Assembly: GCA_003614735.1 (NCBI GenBank)
Contig: KZ992534.1
Location: 1-34,151, forward strand
Length of the DNA: 34,151 nucleotides
Reading direction: 5' to 3'
Source of the DNA: Thamnocephalis sphaerospora
Taxonomy: Eukaryota; Zoopagomycota; Zoopagomycetes; Zoopagales; Sigmoideomycetaceae
Shown: positions 5,664-32,575 of the stretch, one piece after another
Numbering within the stretch: position 1 is the first letter of the stretch
Layout of the letters: every line of letters starts with the position of its first letter
Program-made: the position numbers and the translations under genes
Notes under the pieces: model-generated
Seen by the model: the letters and a program-made list of their open reading frames with translations, nothing else
Databases searched by the model: none
What the model was told of the DNA's origin: nothing

Positions 5664-6612
5664 ATGGTGCGTAGCCAGCACTGCGCTGCGTGTGCTTTTG
5701 TGAGATAGCGCGGCTGATGTGTTTTTAGATTCACATCAAGGCCATACCGTTCCTTGTTGCCGCCATGCTGGTCATTGGCGCGGCTGCCAGTGTCAAGTCG
5801 CTAGAGCAGAGTGGCTCTACACTGCAGCCAAATCGCACAAGCGACACGGTCGACTGCGTAGATGAGCCCGGTGTGGGACTGCCGAAGCCCGGCAATGGTG
5901 AGGCCCAGCGGCCAACCTGCAGGCCCACTGTCTACAATTTCGACGACGAGCGTGATCTGGCTGCATTGGCCGATCCAAGCTTTGACAACAACTACTGCGC
6001 CGAAAACGCCGAGGTCTCCAACGGCAATCTGGTGCTCAAACTGACGGCTAAATGCGGTCCTTCGATTGGCCCTTCCTTTGAGTTCCGCGAGGGCAAGGTC
6101 GAGGCGCGTATCCGCACCGGCCGCACAAGCGGCGTAGTCACTTCGCTTTACGTGAGTACATCGAGTTTGCTCGCGTTTGAAATCAGTACTAATGGCCAAC
6201 ACTCCCGTGCACCTGCCAGCTTCGAAGCGGCATTGGGCCAGATGGCAGCCAGGATGAAGTAGACATTGAGTTTGTTGGCAAGGACCCAAATCGCTTCCAG
6301 TCGTTTGTCTGGGTGAATGGCAAGCGCGGGCAGGAGACGCCAGAGTATCACGACGTCGGGCAGGACACATCGACAGACTACCATGTCTACGGCATAGACT
6401 ACCAAAAGGACAGCATTAGCTGGCTGCTGGACGGAAGAGTGGTTCGCACGCTGCATCGCCAGAATGCGGCCGTTTTTCCCAGCGAAAAGCAACGCTTCAA
6501 GATTACCCTTTGGGATGGCAGCGACTACGACGACTGGGCTGGCCCAATCGACAAGTCGCAGTATCCGTATCATGCCTACTTTGACTGGATCAGATTCACA
6601 CCATACTGCTAG
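5664..6612 (+). CDS. Crh-type GH16 chitin-glucan transglycosylase
   Basis: Cell-wall enzyme of glycoside hydrolase family 16, Crh group, which cross-links chitin to beta-glucan. Exons: 5664-5666 (ATG alone), 5729-6151 and 6220-6612, giving 272 residues. The second intron has a TACTAAT branch site around 6187. Residues 2-22 (IHIKAIPFLVAAMLVIGAAAS) form the signal peptide. The GH16 catalytic signature DEVDIEF spans 154-160, with Glu155 the expected nucleophile and Glu159 the acid/base, both intact. Downstream come conserved strands (YHVYGIDY, SISWLLDGRVVRTL) and the WDGSDYDDWAG loop. The protein ends shortly after (FDWIRFTPYC) with no Ser/Thr stalk or GPI signal and no chitin-binding module, so it is probably freely secreted. 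An ATTAAA at 6698 may be its polyadenylation signal. Confidence 0.9.
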
Positions 6613-7249: not shown

Positions 7250-9778
7250 ATGGCCACTATGCAGACTGCCAGCCGGTTTTTACTTGCTCTAAGCAGCTTT
7301 GAGCGCCTGCTCAAGTGCGGTATTTGGTAAGGATTGTGCCCACTCTGCCGAGGCTCATCGCACATGCCAACTAACGCTGCGCAACCAGCGGCCACCTGAT
7401 GTCAGAAACGCATACAGTCATGGAATGCGGTCATAACTTTTGCCAGTGAGTTCACGTAATACTGATTCACGCGCCAGTACACGACCGGCTGACACTGCGT
7501 GCCAGCATTTGTGCAGAAGAAAGACTCGGTGCAGACTGTCAATGCCCGACCTGCGGTCTTCCGGCGCGCGTCGGCAATCTTCGCAAGAATCTATCGCACG
7601 ATATGCTGGTAATGTGTGCCCAGCGCATGCGTCAGCTGACCGGCACACAGTCGGTGGTTCAGTCAGCGGAGTGCGCGGATGCCGAAGGCATAAAAGAACG
7701 CGCAGCGGCAACACCGAGAAAGAACATGCAACAAACAAGCGATACTGGGCCTGGTCTAAGGGGTTCCGAAAAACGATCTCGCAGAGCCAACAAGCCTGAC
7801 AGGGAGGTAAAGCGGCGAAAGAGTGGCTTGGAAGACGCGGCAACTGGCGTGGAACCGTCAGTGCCCGATGTCGGTGTGCAAAATGAACACAATCGCGTTG
7901 CATTGCGTGCTCTGCCAGCAAACGTCAGCGCATCGGTGTCGACAGAGGCAGCTCAGACGGCATGCTCAACGCCAGGAAAAGTGAAGGATGGCGGCCGTGG
8001 AAAGCCAAAGTCAAAGCGTGTAGTCACACCCGCCAAGTCTGCTGCTAAACAGGTGCGTGGCGACGGCCTATGCATGCTACTGGTATGCTGACTCGAGTCT
8101 TTTCAATTGCAGTCTGCTAAAAAGCCCATAACAACGACATACGATAAGTCTGCAGAGGTACATGGCAGTGGCAGTGGTTGTGGTTGTGGTGAATATAAGC
8201 TGTGCAGCTTACACCTGAATGCTACCCATTAGGACACGCTTGCTACACCGCGTGTATCGCTGCGTCGACGCAAGGTAGACAATTATTTTTCACCGGCCAA
8301 CTACTCCGGCTACGATGACACATGTGCTGGTTTCGTCAAGGAAAAGTCGCCTCGAACGGCGGTAGGTATACACGAGCATACCATAGTAATTACAGATATC
8401 ACATGGTGTTTATTCATTTGCATGATATAGAAAGACCAAGCTACGCCTGGTGCTGCTAGTTTCATGACTCCACCGCCAACCGTCCGTAGTAACAGCACTG
8501 GTGCGGACGAGTGGTCATGCACTATGTGCACCTTTTTGAACCCCACCAAAGCCCGCAAATGCAAGATATGCTTACAGCCGCGAGGAAAATCGCGTGTTGC
8601 CACGGTGTTTGATGACGCAGTAGCACAGGCTGTAGATGGCGCAAATGACTACACTTTGGAGCAGCTGGGCCAACGCACAAGCACGGGCGAAAAATGTGTT
8701 GTGGCATTGGGACAGGCAAAGGGCAGACATTCTCGGACGCGCTCCACATCGGCGGCGGAGCCTGGCAACGTAACACCAGCCAGCCGCAGCAAAAGAGCCA
8801 CAGTGATAACGGTTGACTTGAATACGGCTAAAACAGAACCAGCAACAAGCTGCAAAAGTACATCCGATAGCCAGCAGACATATATAACAGACACGCCATC
8901 GGCACAGGCCCTTGCTATGAATACACCACACACGCGCACCCTGGCACGAACACTCTCTACGGAAACAAGCAGCACGACGCCGCACATTCTTGCCACTGGC
9001 TTGAAGCAGAGTGAGCTGGTATGTGACATCATTGGTATGTACATGGCGCAAACCCGCTGCTTACCATCGCTGTATCGTTTAGAGTATCATTCGATCAATT
9101 TCCATGCGTGGTCTCAAGCCAAAAATGATGTCCGAGTTTACAGAACGTACAACACACGTGGTGGTCCCAGCAGACGCCAAGGGACTGGCGCCACGCACGG
9201 TCAAGTACATGTCGGCACTGCTAGCTGGCTGTTGGATTGTGGATTTTGATTGTACGTATACCGTTAGCCATCATTGCAATTGTGTAAGCATACTCACACT
9301 CGCATTCTGCGATAGGGGTGGTCAAAAGCGTAGAGGCCGGCTGTTGGCTCGATCCAGCACCCTTTGAGGTGCACGGCGACTCGGGTGTGGGTGTGTCGGA
9401 TGCCGTGCGGCGTAGTCGCCTTCGTGAGGCCAACCGGGTAAGCGACCTGTGCTGGAGTAGTCAGCACGATCGTAATGTCAAACTTATACGCTCCTGTTTC
9501 AACAGTTGCCGCGGTTATTCGCAGGTCTACGCGTGCATCTGGCCAGCAAGCAGCACGACAGTCTGCGGCGCCTGATTGCACTCGGTGGCGGCGTACTGAC
9601 CACTGGAAACGACAGCACGGGTGATCATGTGCTGACAGTACTGGACAAGGATCCCACGAGCACGCGTGCGCGCAGCAGCCAGAGCGACATCAACGATGCA
9701 TGGCGCATCACGACAGAGCAGTTTTTACGCAGCATATCTCTGCAGCATCCATGCTGGCCAGAGTCGAAGTGCATATAG
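7250..9778 (+). CDS. BARD1-like RING / RanBP2-zinc-finger / tandem-BRCT protein
   Basis: Likely nuclear E3 ubiquitin-ligase subunit of the BRCA1/BARD1 type. Nine exons: 7250-7326, 7389-7445, 7506-8052, 8113-8157, 8233-8361, 8431-9018, 9083-9251, 9316-9437, 9506-9778; 668 residues. The RING is complete: C23, C26, C39, H41, C44, C47, C58, C61. It is followed by LRKNLSHDMLVMCAQRMRQL, matching the helix after the BARD1 RING. The centre is long and basic. Residues about 312-337 (EWSCTMCTFLNPTKARKCKIC) form a RanBP2-type zinc finger. Two BRCTs follow: about 482-577 (TTHVVVPAD, CWIVDFDW) and 579-668 (LPRLFAGLRVHL). The linker RRSRL...LPRLFAG resembles the BARD1 inter-BRCT region. There are no ankyrin repeats, unlike animal BARD1. 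An assignment to BRCA1 itself is less likely. The domains are certain; orthology is inferred. Confidence 0.87.
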
Positions 9779-13035: not shown

Positions 13036-16241
<3,206 letters not shown>

Positions 16242-17896: not shown

Positions 17897-20583
17897 CTAA
17901 GTTGAGCCCAGCCGCGGCGATTCGGCGGCCATGATGCTGCATTTACGTCGTCGATGGGTACTTGTCTGCCAAGAGGTAGCTTCGGTCTGACGAAACGCGT
18001 TGATTGCGCGATCCACCTCGTCCATCATCTCCAAGGCCATCTGGTAAAACTCGCTGCCAGCCGGATTAAACATGGCCGCGTTTTGGAAGATGAGCATCAT
18101 GTCGCGATGAAACTCGTCCGTCGTATTGATCACCTGTTTCCAGCATGCATCGCAACGCAGTCAGTCGACAGTCCGTGCTTGACGACATGCGCACGCTCAA
18201 CGCACCCCTTCGCGCACGCGCTTGCGCACAGTATTGAGATCCATCGGCCGCTTGATCACGTCATAGTATCCGGGAGCCTGTTGGCGACGAATAGGTTGCG
18301 CAAACACCGACGCATACCGATGGTTGGCCAGATCACGCCAAATCATGAGAACCAGCTTGCGCCACGTCTTTTGCCGCTCCACCTCTTCCTCGTGCGACAG
18401 TTCCATGCGTGTGGGCGTTGACGCCTTGCTCCATCGCGGCCCATTGTGATCCGACTCGGCATCCGAGCCTAGGTCCGCGCTAGAAGCTATACACGCCACC
18501 GCACACCGTCAGTCGGTTGACCCAGCATCAAGCAGAATAGCGTGTACCTACCCCGCAGTACGCTTTCTGCCATAGGCGATGGCGACCGCGACAGTGGCAT
18601 CTCGTCCTGCTCGGCTCGCTCCGAAACGCTGGCCGATGGAACTGCCGCTGCGACTTCGTCGTCTGTCGGTAAAGACACTTCACGCTTCATCTCCACCGAC
18701 TGGGCGTCTGCCGTTTCCGCTTCGTGTGTGTGATCTTTCACAACAGTCTGCTGTGCGGCAGCACTCGTCATTTCCGCATCCGGAGCCTGCTCTGATGCTG
18801 CAGACACAGGTGGCGAGTGGTGCTCAAGCTCATCCGTTTCTTTGGCCTTGATGTGCCCATCAGCTGACGACGTCTCCACCACCGCTCGATCCGTCTTGTC
18901 CAAAGACGGTTGCTTTATGTCCGCTTGCATCTGCTCATTCACGACTGCCTCCACCACGTCGTGTGTCTCGGCCAGGGGCGCATAATGCTGTGCGTCTTCT
19001 TCGACCTTCACCGCCTGCTTGGGCGCCTCTGGCGCCTCGTCCTGCGGTGATGCTTTAGCTGGCACTTTAGATGATGCGATGGGTGATGCACTGGCCGCAG
19101 CAGTGGAACTGGTGTTTGCTCCCGGTAGCGACTCAATACCCTCCATGCCGTCCTGCTCTGACATCCAGGATGTTCCGTCCCCATTCATCTCCTCAGCCGG
19201 AAAAGCAGCACTTTCATTCTGCTGTTCTACAGCCGCGTCATGTACCACCTCACTGGATGTCACCACAGATGCGTCGGCGATATCGGCGGCAGAGTGCAGG
19301 TCTTTGGCCTCACCAGGCACGGGCGCTTCCGACGCCACCAAGGTCGGTGGTATAGCGTGTTCGTCAACTTCCATAGCATCAACCTTATCCGGCAGCTCCT
19401 GTGTCTCTCCAGCCGGTTCGGATAGTGGCGTGGCAGCTGTGTTTAGATTAGCGCCTACTTTGGCAGCACCTTGGACGTTGTCCTGTTCCATTTGTGTTGT
19501 TGTGCGCGGTGATGGTACTTTGGCGGCGGCAATCTCGTCTGGCCTGGCCTCTACAGCCAGAGCCAGCTCGTCTACTCCCCGCACGACAGGTGCTGCCACT
19601 GTCGCTGTCATTGTCTGTCCATCAACCGCTTGCACGTTTCCCGACTCTTCCGACGTTGTTGTTTCCAGCAATGTACTGCCAACTGTCGTGAGAACAGGCA
19701 CACCAGAGGTCGTTTCCTCGACCGGCAGGACTGCCGTGCCATCGGAGCTGTCGTATTTATGCTGCTGTTCCAACAGTCGCGTATCCCATTTGCCAGTGCG
19801 AATCTGATGGATCTCTTCAACCAGCGTTCTACCACCCGTGGGCATCATAAGCTGGTGCGCATCTTCGCAGCACCAATGCTTGCTACAACCTACCCAATGC
19901 GCTCCTCGTCATCCTTGATGGCGCGCTTCAGTTCCTCAACGCGCTGCGCGTGAAAGTGGCTTGCCAGCTTGATCACCGCAGGCATATCTGATGTGCCGAG
20001 GCGTGTTTGGCATTAGCCAGTGTGCGCAAACCGCGTTTAGCCCACGTCATCGCCAACCTACCGCGCGTAGCGCTTGTTGCACCCGAATCGCCACCTTCCG
20101 CAGCATCACCTGCAGCGCGCCTCTGCTTTCTGCACAAGTGGACACGTCAGTCGCTGTGTAAGCTCCGCAGCCGGCGGTTTGCCTACATACCGCTCCTCCT
20201 CTAGCTCGCTGATGAGGCGCAGGTACTGTCGCTCGCAATTCTAGCGGTGCCAAACAGGGTGTGGTCAGATAAGGTGACGGCAGCCTGCGTCTATCTGCGC
20301 CTCCGCCTACCTTGGGCGTCAGCTCTTCCGAGCGCGTGATAAGCCGGTGCTGCCGCAGAGTACGCGACACCGTCGGCCAGCTATCGTCTCCGTAGTGATA
20401 GACCGCTTGCGTGAGCAGTAGATTCTCGAGCGTGCCCCAGACAGGCGCATCGCTGCCGGCCCCTGTTGCAGCGGCGACACTCGCGCCGTCACCGGTGTCG
20501 TGGGCCGGCACGTCGGACATGTCGACGTCGCCAGACAGCTGGGCAGCGTCCTCGGAGCGTATGGTGGCAAGATTCGCCGCCAT
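17897..20583 (-). CDS. BRD8/Bdc1-type bromodomain subunit of NuA4 acetyltransferase
   Basis: Nuclear protein with a C-terminal bromodomain, expected in the NuA4/TIP60 histone acetyltransferase complex. Exons (minus): 20583-20311, 20240-20191, 20129-20062, 19987-19894, 19828-18552, 18486-18206, 18133-17897; 759 residues. The start is the ATG at 20583, because the upstream frame has no earlier ATG. Residues about 48-108 (WGTLENLLLTQAVYHYGDDS, TVSRTLRQHR, CERQYLRLISELE) match the SANT-like N-terminus of BRD8. A segment HQIRTGKWD follows near 185. The big fifth exon is acidic and low-complexity (Glu/Ala/Val/Thr). The bromodomain is about 618-735: GYYDVIKRPMDLNTVRKRV, then FQNAAMFNP, where Asn704 is the expected acetyl-lysine-binding residue. 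Assignment to BRD8 rests on the N-terminal domain plus the single bromodomain. Confidence 0.9.
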
Positions 20584-21439: not shown

Positions 21440-24425
21440 TCAGTCGTGTTCGTCATCGTCGTCGAGCGGCTCGTCGTTTTCATCTGCAATGCTGTTTGAG
21501 ATCTCCAGGAGCGCCTCAATGGCCGGCGGCAGATGACCGCGATGCGCCTGCAGCACCATGTGGCACACCTCGACATCAACGTTGGGGAACATGTTTCGCA
21601 GCATGTCAAACGCGTGCGCATAGTCTTTGCTGCGTGTAAGCGTGCTCCGCGACTGGAAGGACTGTGCGTCGGAAAACGTGTACAGGGAGGCCATCGAGTC
21701 GATCGACATTGTGCGCGCTCGCCGGATCGCCTGCGGCAGGGACTCGCGTTGTGAGGTCGTCGGCGACCAGGTGTTTGTCGAGGGCGCCGTGCTGCTGGGT
21801 GGCGAGGCTCTACCGGGGAACTGGCTGCTGGCGCTACCCTCGTCCGAGTCGGTCACGTCCATCAGCTGATCAAAGCGTCGAACTGCGCGCTGTGCCAGGT
21901 TCACGCCCTTCGTCAGGATACTGAGTCCGTTTGGGCGCTGCGGCGTGGACGCGCCAGACGCACCGGCCGAGCTAGTAATTGACGGCCGGCGCGATGCGCC
22001 GCGTGAAGAGGACGACGGCGTCATCGGCGGCGTAGTATTCTCGTAGCTGATAGGAGGACGCGGAGGCGGAGGGCTTGTGGGTCGGTTCTCCGCCGCCAGC
22101 TCCTCCAGCGTGCGGCTGATGGAGGCGTCAAACTCCTCTCGAGAGATGGAAAGCGAGCTTGCGTCCATCCGCTCCAGGAACGAAATGACGCCCATCTGCA
22201 GACGATAGGCAAAGTGCCGTTAGCAATGGCGTCGATCTCGCAGACACATGCACCCACACACATGCACATGCGCATGCCAACGTACCAGGTTGGTTAAATA
22301 ATAGCCGGCCTCCGATTCTAGTCGCGACGGATGCCGAAACCGCGAGATGTACCTGAGCAACGCGTCAGCAACACCGTCGATCAGCAATCCAGATGTGGTA
22401 GCGCCCGCAGGTTCACGCCTATACGATACGCACTGTACATTCGATACCAGCTGTTCGGGATTCGCTTTGATTACAACGTAAATAAGGATGGGAAGAAACT
22501 TGTCCGCTCCTGCCGCTTCGCCTTCCATGCGTCTCAGCAAAGCTGCGGTAAATGCGCATGTTAGCTACCACTGGTGCAGACCCAGCACAGCGCCGCGAAA
22601 CATACTGAAAATGACGATGCAGCAGTTGAGAATGCAGATAAGCTTGTCGCGCGGCGCACGATAGTTGTTCATCTTGAGCAGCTCTAGCAGTAGGCACCAG
22701 CAAGCTCAGTCCGCTGCCGAGTCGGTCGTCCGGTCACATGCGACAACGTACCCTTTTGCGCGAATTCAAAGTACGACTCGTTGTTGGCCGTGGTGGGAAT
22801 ATCCAGGTGCTCCTCCTTGATCCACCGAAAAATCTGAATCTTCTGGTGGGTGATTTCATCGCGCTCCGCATCGTCCGTCGTCGAAGAGCAGAAGGTTCTA
22901 GCGCACATGCAACGATGAGCCTTGTCGTCTGATGATTGCCATTTTTGCTTGCCATGGTGTTCCACTCCGTTGCACCAGCGCCGTCATCGCCGTCGACATG
23001 CACACTGCTACTTACTCGCCAAACAACCGGTTCATCACCAGCTTCTCCATGCCTTCGCGGGCATTGTCAAACTCGGCCTCGGACACGCCCCGCCACTGAT
23101 CGCACTCGTGCATCTTTCCCTCGATAAACTATTTCAGCCACGCAAAGCGGTTGCAGCAAAGCAGCACACACACACATCAGCACGATCTACTTGTACGGCA
23201 ATGCCGGTCACCTGTGCCACGCTCCTACCTCGAGAAAGTCGTGGATGATCCGAATCTGCTCATTCACCGCCCATGCCTTTTTGCTAAACTCACGCAGGAA
23301 GCTGTGTTGCCATAAAGGAAAGCCAAGGTGAGTTAGTGTGCGCAATGGCTAGTGCGTGCTTCATCCAAGCCACGCGCAATTACCTTTTCAGGTAGCGGGC
23401 AATAGGCGCGGAGCTGCGATGCCGCATCTGTTCGAGGAAGCGGCGATAGTCAAACTTTGGCTTCTCCTCCTTGCCGGCGTCGGCATCTTTGGCGCCAGAC
23501 GAGTCCCCACGAGCCAGATTCTCCGACAATGGCACGGCCACAGCGGGCACCCCTGCATCTTCAGCACCATTTGCATCTGCCTGGTCATCTGCACGGCTGC
23601 TGCTGTCTTCGCCCTCCTTGTTCTTGGCACCGAGAGTGCCGTTCGTGTGCTGACTGGCCTTGAGCTTGCGGCTGCCGGCCAGACTAGTCGTGCGCACGTC
23701 CGGTTTGGCCGCATCAGGCAGCGAAGACACTGATGGCACCGTGTATGGCGAGCGCAGCAGCGGTGACACAGGTGAGCAACGGGCAGAAATAGGCGGCGAA
23801 ACATCATGCAACGCGTGTAGAGGGCGAACGGGCCCACGGGTCGTGAGAGAGCGGCGCAAACGCCACCACGCGGAGCGATGGAGCACGTGCCCCGCAAGTC
23901 TGTTCACTCTGCCAAGGATCCAAACTCCCCGGCAGTACCCCCGGTCGACGCCATAGCCACCGCTGTGACACGAGCTGGCGCCCTGCCTGCACCACCGTGC
24001 TCCTGGCGTGTGTGTGTGTGCTTACCGCGGGGATAATCCTTGAGGGTGGCGTCGGTGACTGTATGCCCGTTGACGGCGGCCCCACTGCTGCCACGCCGGC
24101 GACGACCAATCGCAGCCGCGTCGTGGTTGCTCCTGCTATCGCTCCGATGCGGCCGTTGCGGACGGCGTAGCTGCTGACGGCCGAGGGGTGCGCCCGTGCC
24201 GTTGGCCGACAGAACATGCTCCTTGCCGGACGACACAGGGCGCTGGGGCGGCGTATCGACAAGGATAGGGTCGAATTCGCGTACGAGATCGCCCACCGAG
24301 TAGCCACCGCCGCCGTCGCCGCCGCTCTGCACGCTGTTAGGCTGCTGGAGCGGCGAGTACCGAACCGTGTCCTCTGGCCCGGATGGCTTGGTCGGGTGCG
24401 ACATGACCTCCGTAGTCATATGCAT
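21440..24425 (-). CDS. VPS9: Vps9-type Rab5 guanine nucleotide exchange factor with CUE domain
   Basis: Endocytic/vacuolar-sorting GEF that activates Rab5 GTPases (Vps21 in yeast). Exons (minus): 24425-24026, 23906-23384, 23301-23229, 23128-23016, 22897-22752, 22683-22606, 22542-22434, 22352-22286, 22195-21440; 754 residues. The N-terminal 280 or so are low-complexity. A helical bundle starts near 285 ([20 protein letters not shown]). The VPS9 domain runs to about 503: [56 protein letters not shown], and RFRHPSRL...EAGYYLTNL. After a Ser/Pro-rich stretch, residues about 695-735 are a CUE ubiquitin-binding domain with its MFP and LL motifs ([19 protein letters not shown]), followed by an acidic tail. 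Start and first intron (23907-24025) are less sure; the upstream frame has no ATG. Confidence 0.93.
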
Positions 24426-26337: not shown

Positions 26338-28406
26338 ATGTCTCTAGAGTCGACTGCCACGGTCGTAGCGGGCGACGTAGTCGACACGACGCCAGAAGCG
26401 CAGTGCGATGCAGCATGGCGTGTGCGTGAAGATCAGTACACGTTTATTCGCATGCCAAGTGGCAACACCAAGGTGCTCAAGCTGCAGCGTGGCAGGTAGG
26501 GCCGGCGCAGGTCGAGAACAGCGTGGTGGTGGTGGTCTCTGGTGGCCGCGGGTGAGGCGCGCGAGCTGACAGCGTGTCTGCTTGGTGCACAGCGTGGTGA
26601 GCCTGGGCAAGTTTGGTGCGTTCAAGGCCGACGACGTGCTCGGCAAGCCGTTTGGCCTGTCCTATGAGGTTGTGGGCAAGCGGAAACTGCGCGTTGTGCG
26701 TCGCATGGACCAAGACGACGCAGGTGAGAAGGACAGGTCACTGCGCTAGGCGTGTTGCACAGAAATATGCTAATGCATGTGCATGAGTAGGCTATGACTC
26801 GGATGCCAACAACCGTGAGATTGGACAGGACGGTACTAGCCAGCAGTTGTCGCAAGCGGAGATTGAGCAGATGAAGCGTGATGGCCTAGAGGGTAGTCTG
26901 GCGTCAGAGGTGAGCTAGCACGGACGCGTTGATGCTAGCATGCACTGGTACTGATGGCGATGACGGCAGATGATTATCCAAAAAGTAGCTGAAAATAATC
27001 AGTCGTTTGAGAAAAAAACCGAATATTCCAAGGCAAAGTATATCAAGCGGAAGCAGCAAAAGTAAGCAGCGTGATGGGGTGTCGGCATGGATGAGCGGCA
27101 GCTCACGCGACCGCACCATGCGGCAGGTTCTCCAAGCTGTTCACGCCCATCCGGCCGACGCTAGCAACGGTGTGCGATCACTTTTTCGCCAAGAACCCGG
27201 GCAAGATCATGTGGGTTTGTGCGGTCTAGGATCATAGTGATGTCGTCGGCTGACCGATGGCGTCTGGCGTAGGGACATGCGCATCGACTCGCTGTCACAG
27301 CTGCTGACCTTTGGCAACGTGCATGCGGGCGGACGTTTTCTGGTGGTGGATGACGCACAAGGCATGCTTGTGTCGGCGGTGCTGGACCGGATGGGCGGCC
27401 ATGGCGAGGTGCTGGCGGTACACAGCGGCGAGAACCACAACTTTGACGTGATGCGCTACCTCAACTATCCACGGGACATCACAGCACCGTTGCGCACCAT
27501 CAGCTGGGGACAGATCACGCCCGACCTCATGGACGAGGATGAGATGAAGCTGCGACAGGGTAGGCGGATGTACCTTGACCACCTGCTTGGTCGACTTGCT
27601 TAGTCATACTGCACAGACACGCGTCCGGACCAAGAGCTGACCGAGTGGCAACGGAGGAATCGTGATCGTCGCCGCATCCGTGTGGAGCGGTTGCAGCAAG
27701 CGCGCCAGATGCTCACGCCTGGTTACTTTGACGGGTAGGCCGATGATCCACATGTGCTTGTCGCTACAGTCAAACTGACTAATCGATTATTGTGGTGGTA
27801 GTTTGTTGGTAGCCACGGAGCTGTGTCCCATGTCGGTGTTCAACCACTTGCTGCCGTTTATCGCCGGTTCACGGCCAATTGTCTTTTTCAACGCCTACCG
27901 AGAGGTGAGCGACAACGAGGTCGATTGCAGCGTACTTGGCAGACGCGCGTGCTGACGTGGTCATGTTTACCGGTAGCAACTGCTTGAAGTAGGCGCACTG
28001 ATGCGTAAATTACCCGAATGTCTCAACGTTCAGATCACGGAAAGCTGGCTGCGCGAATATCAGGCATGTACACCGGTGGCGCGCGCGGTGACGTCTGTCC
28101 GCTTACTTGTTTTATGTGCAGGTTCTTTCGGGACGTACGCATCCCATGATGAGCATGAGCTCTGGCGGTGGTTTTCTGCTGTCGGCCACCAAGGTCATCG
28201 ACTGCCCAGCTCTCCCCATGCACGTTCGCCCGTCGCCTGCAGTCATGGAAGGTGTAGACGCAAGCAGCAGCACGTCGGCCGCCAAGGAGACGGAGATGCC
28301 GCAGACAACGGCGGCCGTCACAACTGAAAACACTGGTGCGACAGCGACAACGACGACGACAGATGATGCACAAGCGCACGCCGACAAGAAGCGCCGGTGT
28401 ATGTAG
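26338..28406 (+). CDS. TRM6: Trm6, non-catalytic subunit of tRNA m1A58 methyltransferase
   Basis: Nuclear partner of Trm61 that binds tRNA for N1-methylation of A58 (yeast Gcd10). Exons: 26338-26495, 26593-26723, 26791-26909, 26970-27061, 27127-27210, 27273-27559, 27617-27734, 27802-27904, 27977-28063, 28122-28406; 487 residues. The N-terminal domain reads YTFIRMPSGNTKVLKLQ, then SLGKFGAFKADDVLGKPFGL. A charged helical stretch (EKKTEYSKAKYIKRKQQKFS) is followed by the degenerate methyltransferase fold (QLLTFGNVHAGGRFLVVD, VLDRMGGHGEVLAVH). Near the end, ITESWLREYQVLSGRTHPMM and SGGGGFLLSA are typical of Trm6. The last intron (28064-28121) uses a GC donor after CAG. The C-terminus is a Thr/Ala-rich tail. 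Full length, no defects. Confidence 0.94.
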
Positions 28407-29882: not shown

Positions 29883-32575
29883 ATGACGGCCCTTACCGCA
29901 CTGACACAGGCAAGCCTATGCCGAGCGACGAACGAGACCGCAGACGCTAACATATCGCCACCCCCACTTGCTGCCCCTTCGTGCTACCATTTGTGTGGCA
30001 CCTACAGTCGCCTCACGATCCAGAAGAGCTGTTCACCATTCTGGAGAAGCTGGGCAGCGGCTCGTTTGGCAGCGTCTACAAAGCGCTCAACAATACCACG
30101 CAGGAAGTCGTGGCCGTCAAGAAGATTGATCTAGAGACGGCCGAGGATGACATCAGTGATATCCAGCTGGAGATTGCGCTGTTGTCGCAGTGCGACTCGC
30201 CCCACATCACACGTTATCATTCGTCGCACGTCAAGGGCTATAAGCTGTGGATCGTCATGGAGTACATGGCAGGCGGCTCCTGCCTGGATCTGCTCAAGCC
30301 TGGTGTCTTTCTAGAGCGGCACATTGCGGTGGTAGTGCGCGAACTGCTGCTAGGTCTCGCTTATCTTCACAGCGAGGGCAAGATTCACCGTGACATCAAA
30401 GGTGGGCACGCAATCTGGATTCGATCAAAGCGAAAGTGACAGCATCGATAGCAGCAGCTGACCTGATGCGTTTGACGTGTTTGCAGCGGCCAACGTTTTG
30501 CTTTCGGGACAGGGCGAGGTTAAGCTGGGTAGGCATTGCCACGCATCACACATTCTACACTGCACTGGCTGACTTTTTTTGGTGTAGCGGACTTTGGTGT
30601 TGCTGCTCAGCTTTCGAGCCAAAAGGGCAAGCGCAATACATTCGTCGGAACACCGGTAAGCAGCAGCAGTGCTACTGCCAACATGCATCTCCAGCGCAGT
30701 CACTTACCAGAATACGTTTGTCGCACGTTGATCACAGTTTTGGATGGCACCCGAGGTGATCCAGCAGTCTGGCTACAATGCCAAGGTAAATATAGTCATC
30801 TGCAGATGGCATGCCAGTGAGCATGATCAGCCTTACTAATTGCATGTGGCATAGGCCGACATTTGGTCTCTTGGTATCACGGCCATCGAGTTGGCACGAG
30901 GACAGCCGCCGTTTGGCGACTACCATCCCATGCGTGTGCTTTTCCTGATTCCGCGCAATGATCCGCCAAAGCTTGAGGGCCACTTTTCGCCAGCGTTCAA
31001 AGAGTTTGTCAGCCTGTGTCTGACCAAGGATCCGGAACGTGTAAGTGCCATAGACTAGGCGGTGGTGCACTTGAGATACTAGAATGTCGAGGTGCTGATC
31101 AAATCTACATGCAAACAGAGACCTACTGCCAGGGACCTGCTGCAGCACCGCTTCATCACCAACTGCATGCGTGACACCACCTCACTGCAGGAATTAATCG
31201 AGCGCTATGACAACTGGCGTCTGTCTCTGGGCGACATGACACCCTCTGATTACACACAGACCATGTAAGTGAGGATGTGAGGTCAGCTACGCTGCTTGCT
31301 GTGCTAACTTGGCGATTTAGCCTTACCGAGTCAACGGAAGACGACGGTGTGTCGACGTGGAACTTTAGCACGATCCATCGTCACAGCATGGCATTGTCGA
31401 CCATTCGCGGCCTGGAGCAAGAGGGTGACGATGACGATAGTCTGCCGTCTACGCTGCGCGCCAGCACAAACTTTAGCTTGGCACCGAGCACCGAGGATGA
31501 AACCATTCGGGTAAGCCTTTTAAGCACTTGTGGCGTCGTTCTCGTCGCCGACAAGTTGCTCACCATATTATTACGACGGGCTACTCCCTCCGGCGGCCAC
31601 AGACCCACTCGCTAACGGCCAGGTCCACCATCCGCTTGATGGACCTGCAGGCGCTTCCCAACGATGATGGTGGTGTGACGCTTGAGGCGATCCAGTATCC
31701 GGAAGGCACCGTGCGACGCATTCCAATTGCGCGCGCGTCCATGGTCATACCGCCCGACGAGGCCGAGGACGCCTATTTGGTCGGCAAGGAGCTGGCCCTG
31801 TCGGTGCTGCTTCCCGCACTGGCCAAGGTGAGTCGCTGCGTACCCGACACGTTTGCCAACCTATAGTGGCTTATACCGCGTGCACGTTCACTGCAGATTA
31901 AAGATGAAGACAGCGAGCGTGCCTGCGCGGCTGTTTCCAAGGTCGAGCAGGGTGTGCTAGAACTAGAGCGTATACACCCGGAGCTGCTGCTCACTGCCGT
32001 CACAGAGATTGTCACGGCGCTGCAAGGGTAGGCTGGCGGCAATACAAGTCAACTGCGACGTTGTGCTCACTGTGTGTCCCTTTCCATGCTACAGAATCCA
32101 CCCGGAAATCCAAGAGCGCGTCGGCTTGCCCGCTACGGCGGTCGAAATCCACCACCCTGCTACGCAGGATGCCGCCACCACCATGACGGTGGTGCGTCGG
32201 CAATCGGTGGCTGTAGGCGGCAATAACGAAACCATTCGCCTGCGACGAAAGGAAGAGTCGGTGCAGACGGACACGCTGCAGCAAACTGGCTTTGACGAGC
32301 TGACCGTACGTGGCCTGCCAATTGCCACCTCCACAATTGCCATTCGCAAACAAGAGGATGCACGCGAGGAGGATGCGGCGACACTGGTGGACGATGATCA
32401 CGCCGCCGCCACCGCCGACGACGACAACCAGGAGCCAGCAGCAGCCGACAGCAGCAAGGTGGACGATGCCGACGATGCTCAGTCGTCCTCGGGAGGCGGT
32501 GGTTTTTTTGAATTTCGCAGCCCCATCGTCGCCTATCTATACAACCGCTGGTACTCGAAATGGTCGTTTACCTAA
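29883..32575 (+). CDS. Ste20/GCK-family Ser/Thr protein kinase
   Basis: Cytoplasmic kinase of the germinal-centre-kinase branch of Ste20 (the group of yeast Kic1 and fission-yeast Nak1/Sid1, polarity and septation). Exons: 29883-29909, 30008-30401, 30487-30528, 30588-30655, 30738-30785, 30855-31040, 31119-31264, 31321-31510, 31603-31827, 31897-32027, 32095-32575; 645 residues. The first exon has nine codons and leaves through a GC donor, giving MTALTALTQ then [15 protein letters not shown], typical of the family. Catalytic residues are intact: GSGSFGSV loop, Lys47 (VAVKK), HRD Asp138, DFG Asp156, and GTPFWMAPE, diagnostic of GCKs. The domain ends near 270 (RDLLQHRF). The rest is acidic and Ser/Thr-rich with a helical part ([19 protein letters not shown]) and ends [15 protein letters not shown]. 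The exact orthologue cannot be fixed. Confidence 0.93.

Follow-up and report, generated by a model that had tools for sequence, protein, structure and literature searches.

A probable BARD1 ortholog carrying an NZF zinc finger, and a BRCA1-type RING partner, in the zoopagalean fungus Thamnocephalis sphaerospora

The window analysed here, a stretch of 34,151 nucleotides from Thamnocephalis sphaerospora (contig KZ992534.1, positions 1 to 34,151), contains a gene at 7250..9778 on the forward strand that encodes a BARD1-like protein of 668 residues. The start codon is the ATG at 7250 and the stop codon ends at 9778, a span of 2529 bases in which the 668-codon open frame comprises nine exons (7250-7326, 7389-7445, 7506-8052, 8113-8157, 8233-8361, 8431-9018, 9083-9251, 9316-9437 and 9506-9778) and eight GT-AG introns, each of 60-75 nt. 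Splice sites were fixed before the introns were compared with those of human genes, and were guided by the open frames and by BRCT homology. The protein displays an N-terminal RING with flanking helices, a conserved central motif, an NZF zinc finger and two C-terminal BRCT domains, and is probably a fungal ortholog of BARD1, which pairs with the breast-cancer protein BRCA1.

The deposited model of the gene (THASP1DRAFT_22946, P0001; 521 residues) agrees with the nine-exon model at the RING and over most of the BRCTs, and lacks the zinc finger, the beginning of BRCT1 as far as THVVVP, and several pieces of linker. Protein search identified an ortholog in Syncephalis fuscata (BDF19DRAFT_441817, P0002; 604 residues, E 1.6e-100), which belongs to a different family of Zoopagales. 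P0002 and the window protein are 44% identical overall, 67% in the RING and 50% in the tandem BRCTs; P0002 keeps the RING, the tandem BRCTs, the central motif and most of the finger (its W-C-C-TFLN-C-I core), and contains the THVVVP stretch skipped by P0001. The nine-exon model was favoured over P0001 because P0002 holds both the finger core and THVVVP. That the finger and the BRCT1 segment are artefacts of the gene model, as the splicing of P0001 around both would have it, is hardly credible, given an exon 6 that stays open over 196 codons and the retention of both segments in Syncephalis. Retention of RING, BRCTs and finger core by an ortholog from another family shows that the RING-BRCT protein is not a product of chance; a chance cluster of cysteines was rejected as an explanation of the finger. 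Two separate genes were likewise rejected, as the deposited models of both species join the RING to the BRCTs, and the single gene at these coordinates proposed by the sequence-only reading was confirmed. With E up to 10, the full-length protein search scored 7990 candidates and returned three matches, the last of which was a fish microcephalin (P0003, E 3.2); that animal BARD1 was not reached is attributed to the word-based search method.

The RING (C3HC4) and its flanking helices extend over residues 12-91 (7283..7644, forward strand, interrupted by introns 1 and 2), and both the complete RING and the helix following it, as noticed from sequence alone, were recovered in Pfam, PDB and profile matches. 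Pfam scores were 26.4 bits for zf-C3HC4_2, slightly below the cut-off of 27, and 24.5 bits for the "BARD1-type" zf-RING_6, against a cut-off of 35. As a single sequence, the RING matched RAD18 (44.2 bits) and BARD1 (37.0 bits) in the PDB, while a two-sequence profile gave RAD18 42.0, BARD1 41.4 and BRCA1 23.9 bits, the top row of that search being a two-RING chimera whose best single RING scored 27.6 bits. The window RING is therefore not BRCA1-type, and its 41.4-bit match to BARD1 covers the whole RING plus helix. A PAxxxxL(K/R)xN segment is common to the window RING and BARD1, whereas the Arg between the first two RING cysteines of human BARD1 (CSRC) is an Ile in the window protein (CGIC).

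BRCT1 and the inter-BRCT linker (RRSRLREANRLPRLFAG) occupy residues 468-585 (8977..9526, forward strand, exons 6-9), with Pfam BRCT and PDB matches; the Pfam score on BRCT1 was 33.4 bits, above the cut-off of 21.3. The second BRCT (residues 579-667; 9506..9772, forward strand) is divergent and shortened, and was matched below cut-off by LIG3_BRCT (16.3 bits) and BRCT_2 (14.0 bits); it is clearer in P0002, where BRCT_2 reached 20.4 bits, still below its cut-off of 27.3. The two C-terminal BRCTs and BARD1-like linker of the sequence-only reading thus hold, the second repeat weakly. Animal BARD1 shares with the window protein the tandem BRCTs and the RRSRL...LPxLF linker. A profile of the two fungal sequences (residues 468-667) matched in the PDB BRCA1 (67.1 bits) and BARD1 (65.4 bits) about equally, at roughly twice the score of the best other solved family (SLF1 32.0, MCPH1 31.2, KKT4 23.4, MDC1 23.2 and TopBP1 19.3 bits). 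A protein search with the BRCT region had the deposited copy of the gene as its sole match at E 0.001. The phosphate-pocket residues T474-G475, T520 and K522 align with S575-G576, T617 and K619 of BARD1. The R519-T520-x-K522 arrangement resembles R1699-T-x-K1702 of BRCA1, while human BARD1 lacks that Arg.

Intron positions were compared with human BARD1 and BRCA1, and were mapped onto human BARD1 through C53/C71, S575, G576, T617 and K619. In the RING and BRCT stretches of human BARD1, exons end at c.158, 215, 1810, 1903 and 2001 (PMC6877745, in part). Intron 1 (7327..7388, phase 2) splits the codon for C26, the second RING Cys, as do human BARD1 c.158|159 and BRCA1 c.80|81; intron 2 (7446..7505, phase 2) lies within the residue that follows the "GHNFC" Cys, corresponding to BARD1 c.215|216; intron 7 (9252..9315, phase 1) splits the Trp538 codon, as BARD1 c.1903|1904 does W635 and BRCA1 c.5152|5153 does W1718; and intron 8 (9438..9505, phase 0) precedes LPRLF at the place of BARD1 c.2001|2002. 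All four lie on the forward strand. In the aligned domains, on the exon ends which that source provides, four of five window introns thus match four of five human BARD1 introns in base and phase, and exon 2 measures 57 nt in both genes. Window intron 6 and human BARD1 c.1810 have no counterpart, and the remaining three window introns fall in the unaligned middle. Under uniform placement, the chance of at least four exact matches in five is 1.8e-8, or 4.1e-5 when one residue of slack is allowed either way, and the protein sequence of P0001 is identical across all four matching junctions. Three of the four positions are also found in BRCA1 (acceptors c.81-1 and c.135-1, and W1718). BRCA1 c.5277|5278 lies three residues closer to the following F-x-G than does intron 8 or its BARD1 equivalent, a placement for which we assumed the human BRCA1 residues after Lys1759; by this alignment the position of intron 8 is that of BARD1 and not that of BRCA1. 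A further BRCA1 intron, at c.5193, is absent from both BARD1 and the window gene. As aligned here, the gene structure supports BARD1, and more sharply than the sequence trees do.

The zinc finger (residues 311-336; 8506..8583, forward strand) was located through Pfam and PDB matches. It was described as RanBP2-type from sequence alone, and a finger is indeed present, with its core kept in P0002, yet Pfam Zn_ribbon_RanBP scored 17.5 bits against a cut-off of 27. Whole RanBP2 heads the PDB list at 29.6 bits, a sum over eight fingers of at most 11.1 bits each, and the best single-finger RanBP2 chain scored 18.8 bits. The best single-domain match was TAB2 (26.6 bits), followed by YAF2 (24.2), HOIP (23.7) and NPL4 (22.0), and since TAB2 has a ubiquitin-binding NZF, this name is the better one. 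The four cysteines (C315, C318, C329 and C332) show the C-x2-C-x10-C-x2-C spacing of TRABID NZF1, and the ubiquitin-contact positions are occupied by T319-F320 after the second Cys and I331 two residues after the third. In the NZFs of TRABID and NPL4, this Cys spacing and a T-F plus hydrophobic triad are described for ubiquitin binding (PMC4386640, in part). The finger thus appears to be of the ubiquitin type and is predicted to bind ubiquitin; it has the same Cys spacing as TAB2, NPL4 and TRABID, and the same T-F motif with a hydrophobic residue after it, differing from these in that it sits inside a RING-BRCT protein. P0002 lacks the fourth Cys, at the point where similarity stops, probably through a splice error in the deposited S. 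fuscata model. The central motif (TPRVSLRRRKVDNYFSPANYSGYDDTC), 27 residues between the RING and the NZF (residues 247-273; 8245..8325, forward strand), was defined by alignment with P0002 and is almost identical across both genera; a search against the PDB gave one match (E 1.4), which was taken as chance. Within the motif stands YFSPAN, which recurs as part of EDYFSPAN in the fish microcephalin P0003, in the linker preceding its tandem BRCTs. This likeness may be chance, P0003 having been chosen through shared words, or may reflect a common short binding motif.

A candidate partner was sought in the T. sphaerospora assembly (14.46 Mb, 594 contigs), which was scanned exon by exon. RING searches gave 34 matches at E up to 0.1 for one family, 30 of which were inspected, and the BRCA1-like RING partner that the sequence-only reading had suggested looking for was found on contig C13 (deposited as THASP1DRAFT_27424, 392 residues; 362 residues in our model). 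For its RING and both flanking helices, the four best PDB sequences were all BRCA1 (58.9-54.2 bits), ahead of a RING2-BMI1 chimera (50.5 bits summed, best single RING 36.3), RNF4 (44.6 bits over two stretches), Peroxin-10 (43.2 bits) and RING2 (40.2 bits). Orthologs were found in S. fuscata (279 residues, 72% identity) and S. plumigaleata (308 residues, 70%), in a search limited to 0.55-1.75 times the query length, in which a much longer BRCA1 would stay hidden. All three partner sequences carry EELPSQLFSQS after the RING helix and a DSQ(S/A)S(I/L)TQ(L/M)SSP block close to the C-terminus; the tail holds four SQ/TQ sites, one of which is an S-Q-L-F (residues 99-102 of P0004) identical in all three. 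While the RING and helices are BRCA1-type, no BRCT family was detected in P0004, P0005 or P0006 (Pfam, E up to 0.1), nor in the 362-residue model at E up to 1, and for lack of a BRCT the protein is termed here a BRCA1-type RING partner and not BRCA1. The first intron of the C13 gene occupies the BRCA1 c.80|81 position, so that in the BARD1-like gene (window 7327) and the partner gene (L042 2813) the codon for the second RING Cys is interrupted by an intron at an identical base; the same holds for human BARD1 and BRCA1. The common RING intron is possibly a trace of a shared origin of the two genes.

The two proteins could in principle derive from a host or other contaminant, as Thamnocephalis and Syncephalis are both mycoparasites. 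This is very improbable, because the closest matches of both proteins come from another zoopagalean genus, no Mucorales appear among the reported matches of a word-limited search (three for the BARD1-like protein, eight for the partner), and the two species' BARD1-like copies, at only 44% identity, are unlikely to stem from one shared contaminant.

Elsewhere in the genome, nine BRCT matches were recorded (four on C185, two on C261 and one each on C68, C467 and C154), and none was taken as a BRCT-bearing BRCA1. C185 holds a multi-BRCT gene, read as exon frames; by reading, C68 is Chs5-like (FN3-BRCT), C467 Rev1-like and C261 RFC1-like; and the frames on C154 are matched by PTIP (28.4 bits), with SLF1, Brc1 and MDC1 as weak matches, and not by BRCA1. 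The C154 gene (L060 2149-3657, reverse strand) ends in a C-terminal tandem BRCT whose first repeat is the one best matched by PTIP. The exon-by-exon scan found no further BRCA1 with BRCTs and also missed the RING and BRCTs of the window gene itself, so that neither a further BRCA1 nor RAD18 is claimed to be absent. A genome search with BRCA2 OB1 gave no match, nor did its controls. Profile and protein searches gave one H2A-like gene (C42:15222-15497), of H2A.Z-like appearance; a canonical H2A gene may be absent from the assembly, or may be broken up by introns.

Taken together, we consider it probable that the gene encodes a zoopagalean BARD1 ortholog whose product pairs with the C13 protein as a nuclear ubiquitin ligase of homologous-recombination repair. 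The kinship rests on BRCT similarity, on gene structure and on a RING partner of BRCA1 type that this genome and two Syncephalis species encode; the sequences establish the order of the domains, conservation across two families, the identity of gene structure, and that the partner exists and is conserved. The window gene has the RING plus C-terminal helix and the four intron positions in common with (human) BARD1, while animal BARD1 has ankyrin repeats where the window protein presents an NZF between RING and BRCTs. Several observations weigh against this assignment. As stated from sequence alone, ankyrin repeats are absent, none being found among 13 Pfam families at E up to 1; to our knowledge, plant BARD1 has none either, and they are treated here as a feature of the animal lineage that does not define BARD1 across eukaryotes. 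The RING scores fail to separate BARD1 from RAD18, and zf-RING_6 does not discriminate, because the BRCA1-type partner scores as high (25.4 bits) as the window RING. In the RING tree (17 rows), the fungal pair groups with BARD1 at a support of only 76/78, several long branches were flagged, a RAD18 grouping is not rejected (p-AU, the approximately unbiased test, 0.157), and a clade of the partner with BRCA1 is missing from the tree and not rejected (p-AU 0.358). In the best BRCT tree (6 rows), BRCA1 adjoins the fungal pair with a support of 57/26, and none of four groupings is rejected (p-AU 0.231-0.462; BARD1 as sister 0.462, BRCA1 and BARD1 without the fungi 0.249, the fungi with MCPH1 0.231). 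The partner, as described, is without BRCT, and predicted structures were poor, with a mean pLDDT (predicted local distance difference test) of 29.4 for the S. fuscata ortholog (2-row alignment) and 38.1 for the S. fuscata partner (3 rows). Finally, R705, D712 and Q715, which contact H2AK15ub nucleosomes in BARD1 (PMC12637766), appear not to be conserved, facing G, H and T in a poorly aligned region. The BARD1-likeness first noticed in the sequence is thus borne out by BRCTs, introns and partner, and is qualified by the RING scores, zf-RING_6 and the weakly supported trees, of which the BRCT tree resolves nothing.

The same RING data would also fit a RAD18-like RING joined to BRCA1/BARD1-type BRCTs, in a protein that needs no partner and serves stalled forks as a homodimeric ligase of RAD6 type: as a single sequence the RING matches RAD18 best, its profile scores RAD18 and BARD1 alike, and the tree does not reject a RAD18 clade. 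No RAD18 gene was located by the exon-wise scan, which is no evidence, since the same scan missed the window gene; one match, on contig C32, was rejected as RAD18, being by reading a Mgs1/WRNIP1-like UBZ-AAA gene. RAD18 has SAP and UBZ domains, whereas the window protein, despite its similar RING sequence, has neither (Pfam, E up to 1) and carries BRCTs. Both RING introns and two introns of the BRCT part stand at human BARD1 places, in a comparison that covered BARD1 and BRCA1 introns, and a conserved BRCA1-type RING partner exists, making this alternative quite improbable beside orthology to BARD1.

Other features of the window were also identified. Directly upstream of the BARD1-like gene lies a GH16 glycosyl hydrolase gene of at least two exons (5729-6609, forward strand). 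On the reverse strand, a JmjC domain (14085-14951; 48.4 bits) is followed by a PHD-like HC5HC2H zinc finger (13392-13775; 45.5 bits), in what seems to be a histone demethylase of KDM4 type whose PHD is extended, an order which we take to be the animal-like arrangement. Further along are a bromodomain, BRD8-like by reading (18200-18508, reverse strand; 43.2 bits), a VPS9 domain (22223-22564, reverse strand), a match to the Gcd10 family, a tRNA methylation subunit (27241-27600, forward strand), and a protein kinase that is STE20-like by reading (29951-30436, forward strand).

The sequence-only reading had held that yeasts and most studied fungi lack BRCA1 and BARD1. For BRCA1, homologs are in print for early-diverging fungi, namely Mucoromycotina and Mortierellomycotina, transcripts being reported from Mucor, from Rhizopus and from one species of Mortierellomycotina (PMC11061109, in part). 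Another paper states that fungal BRCA1 was absent from databases (PMC8483008). By word counts, the main text of PMC11061109 mentions neither BARD1 nor Zoopagomycota, Thamnocephalis or Syncephalis. Among the matches listed in a literature search of titles and abstract beginnings, with few subscription journals, there was no zoopagalean BARD1, no NZF-BARD1 and no BRCT-less BRCA1-type partner. BRCA1 in early-diverging fungi is thus already known, and a fungal BARD1 with an NZF is not among the literature matches listed.

The BRCA1-BARD1 RING pair ubiquitylates H2A at K125/127/129 and requires the acidic patch for this (PMC10639053, in part), and it is from this known activity that we infer a RING heterodimer acting on nucleosomes. 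The BARD1-like and C13 proteins would pair via their RINGs and flanking helices into a ubiquitin ligase on chromatin that serves homologous-recombination repair in the nucleus, with nucleosomal H2A as the likely substrate. The reading modules would lie on the BARD1 side: the tandem BRCTs, through their phosphoserine pocket, and the NZF, through its ubiquitin-contact residues. The NZF would hold the ligase at already ubiquitylated chromatin, in animals the task of the ankyrin-BRCT unit. From the partner would come the RING that faces the E2, along with a tail in which SQ/TQ sites are conserved. That the two proteins dimerise, act as an E3 on this substrate, bind ubiquitin and take part in repair is predicted throughout. 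The rewired BRCA1-BARD1 ligase imagined from sequence alone stands in that an NZF replaces the ankyrins and the partner has no BRCT, its dimer and ligase activity being among these predictions.

Orthology could also be true and the pair rewired to another task, such as meiosis or transcription-linked ubiquitylation, with an NZF that does not read chromatin ubiquitin. The missing BRCT of the partner, the shortened BRCT2, the lack of ankyrins and the H2AK15ub-contact residues, unconserved as aligned here, would all suit such a change, whereas the phosphate-pocket and NZF ubiquitin-contact residues are kept in the sequence, and on balance we regard a changed task as rather unlikely. A repair ligase of BARD1 and its BRCA1-type partner thus remains preferred, and may take a more particular form, which we put forward as a doubtful extension: a minimal, one-armed BRCA1-BARD1 ligase with all readers on BARD1, in which the BRCTs, with their BRCA1-like R519-T520-x-K522 pocket, may bind the S-Q-L-F of the partner and the NZF replaces the ankyrin-BRCT unit. 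The sequence pSxxF is a ligand of BRCA1 BRCTs (PMC12448885, in part), and the partner's S-Q-L-F fits both this ligand and an ATM/ATR SQ target; in this way the pair would be locked, or recruited, upon damage signalling.

If the one-armed ligase is real, fungi would offer a way to test how BRCA1 and BARD1 ancestrally divided the BRCT duties. The compact pair (668 and 362-392 residues) would be a natural minimal ligase in which the ankyrins and the BRCTs of BRCA1 are dispensable, and would suggest that an NZF can substitute for the lost parts. The BARD1 gene structure would predate the split of animals and fungi, and the repair pair of animals and plants seems to persist, stripped down and rearranged, in part of the fungi.

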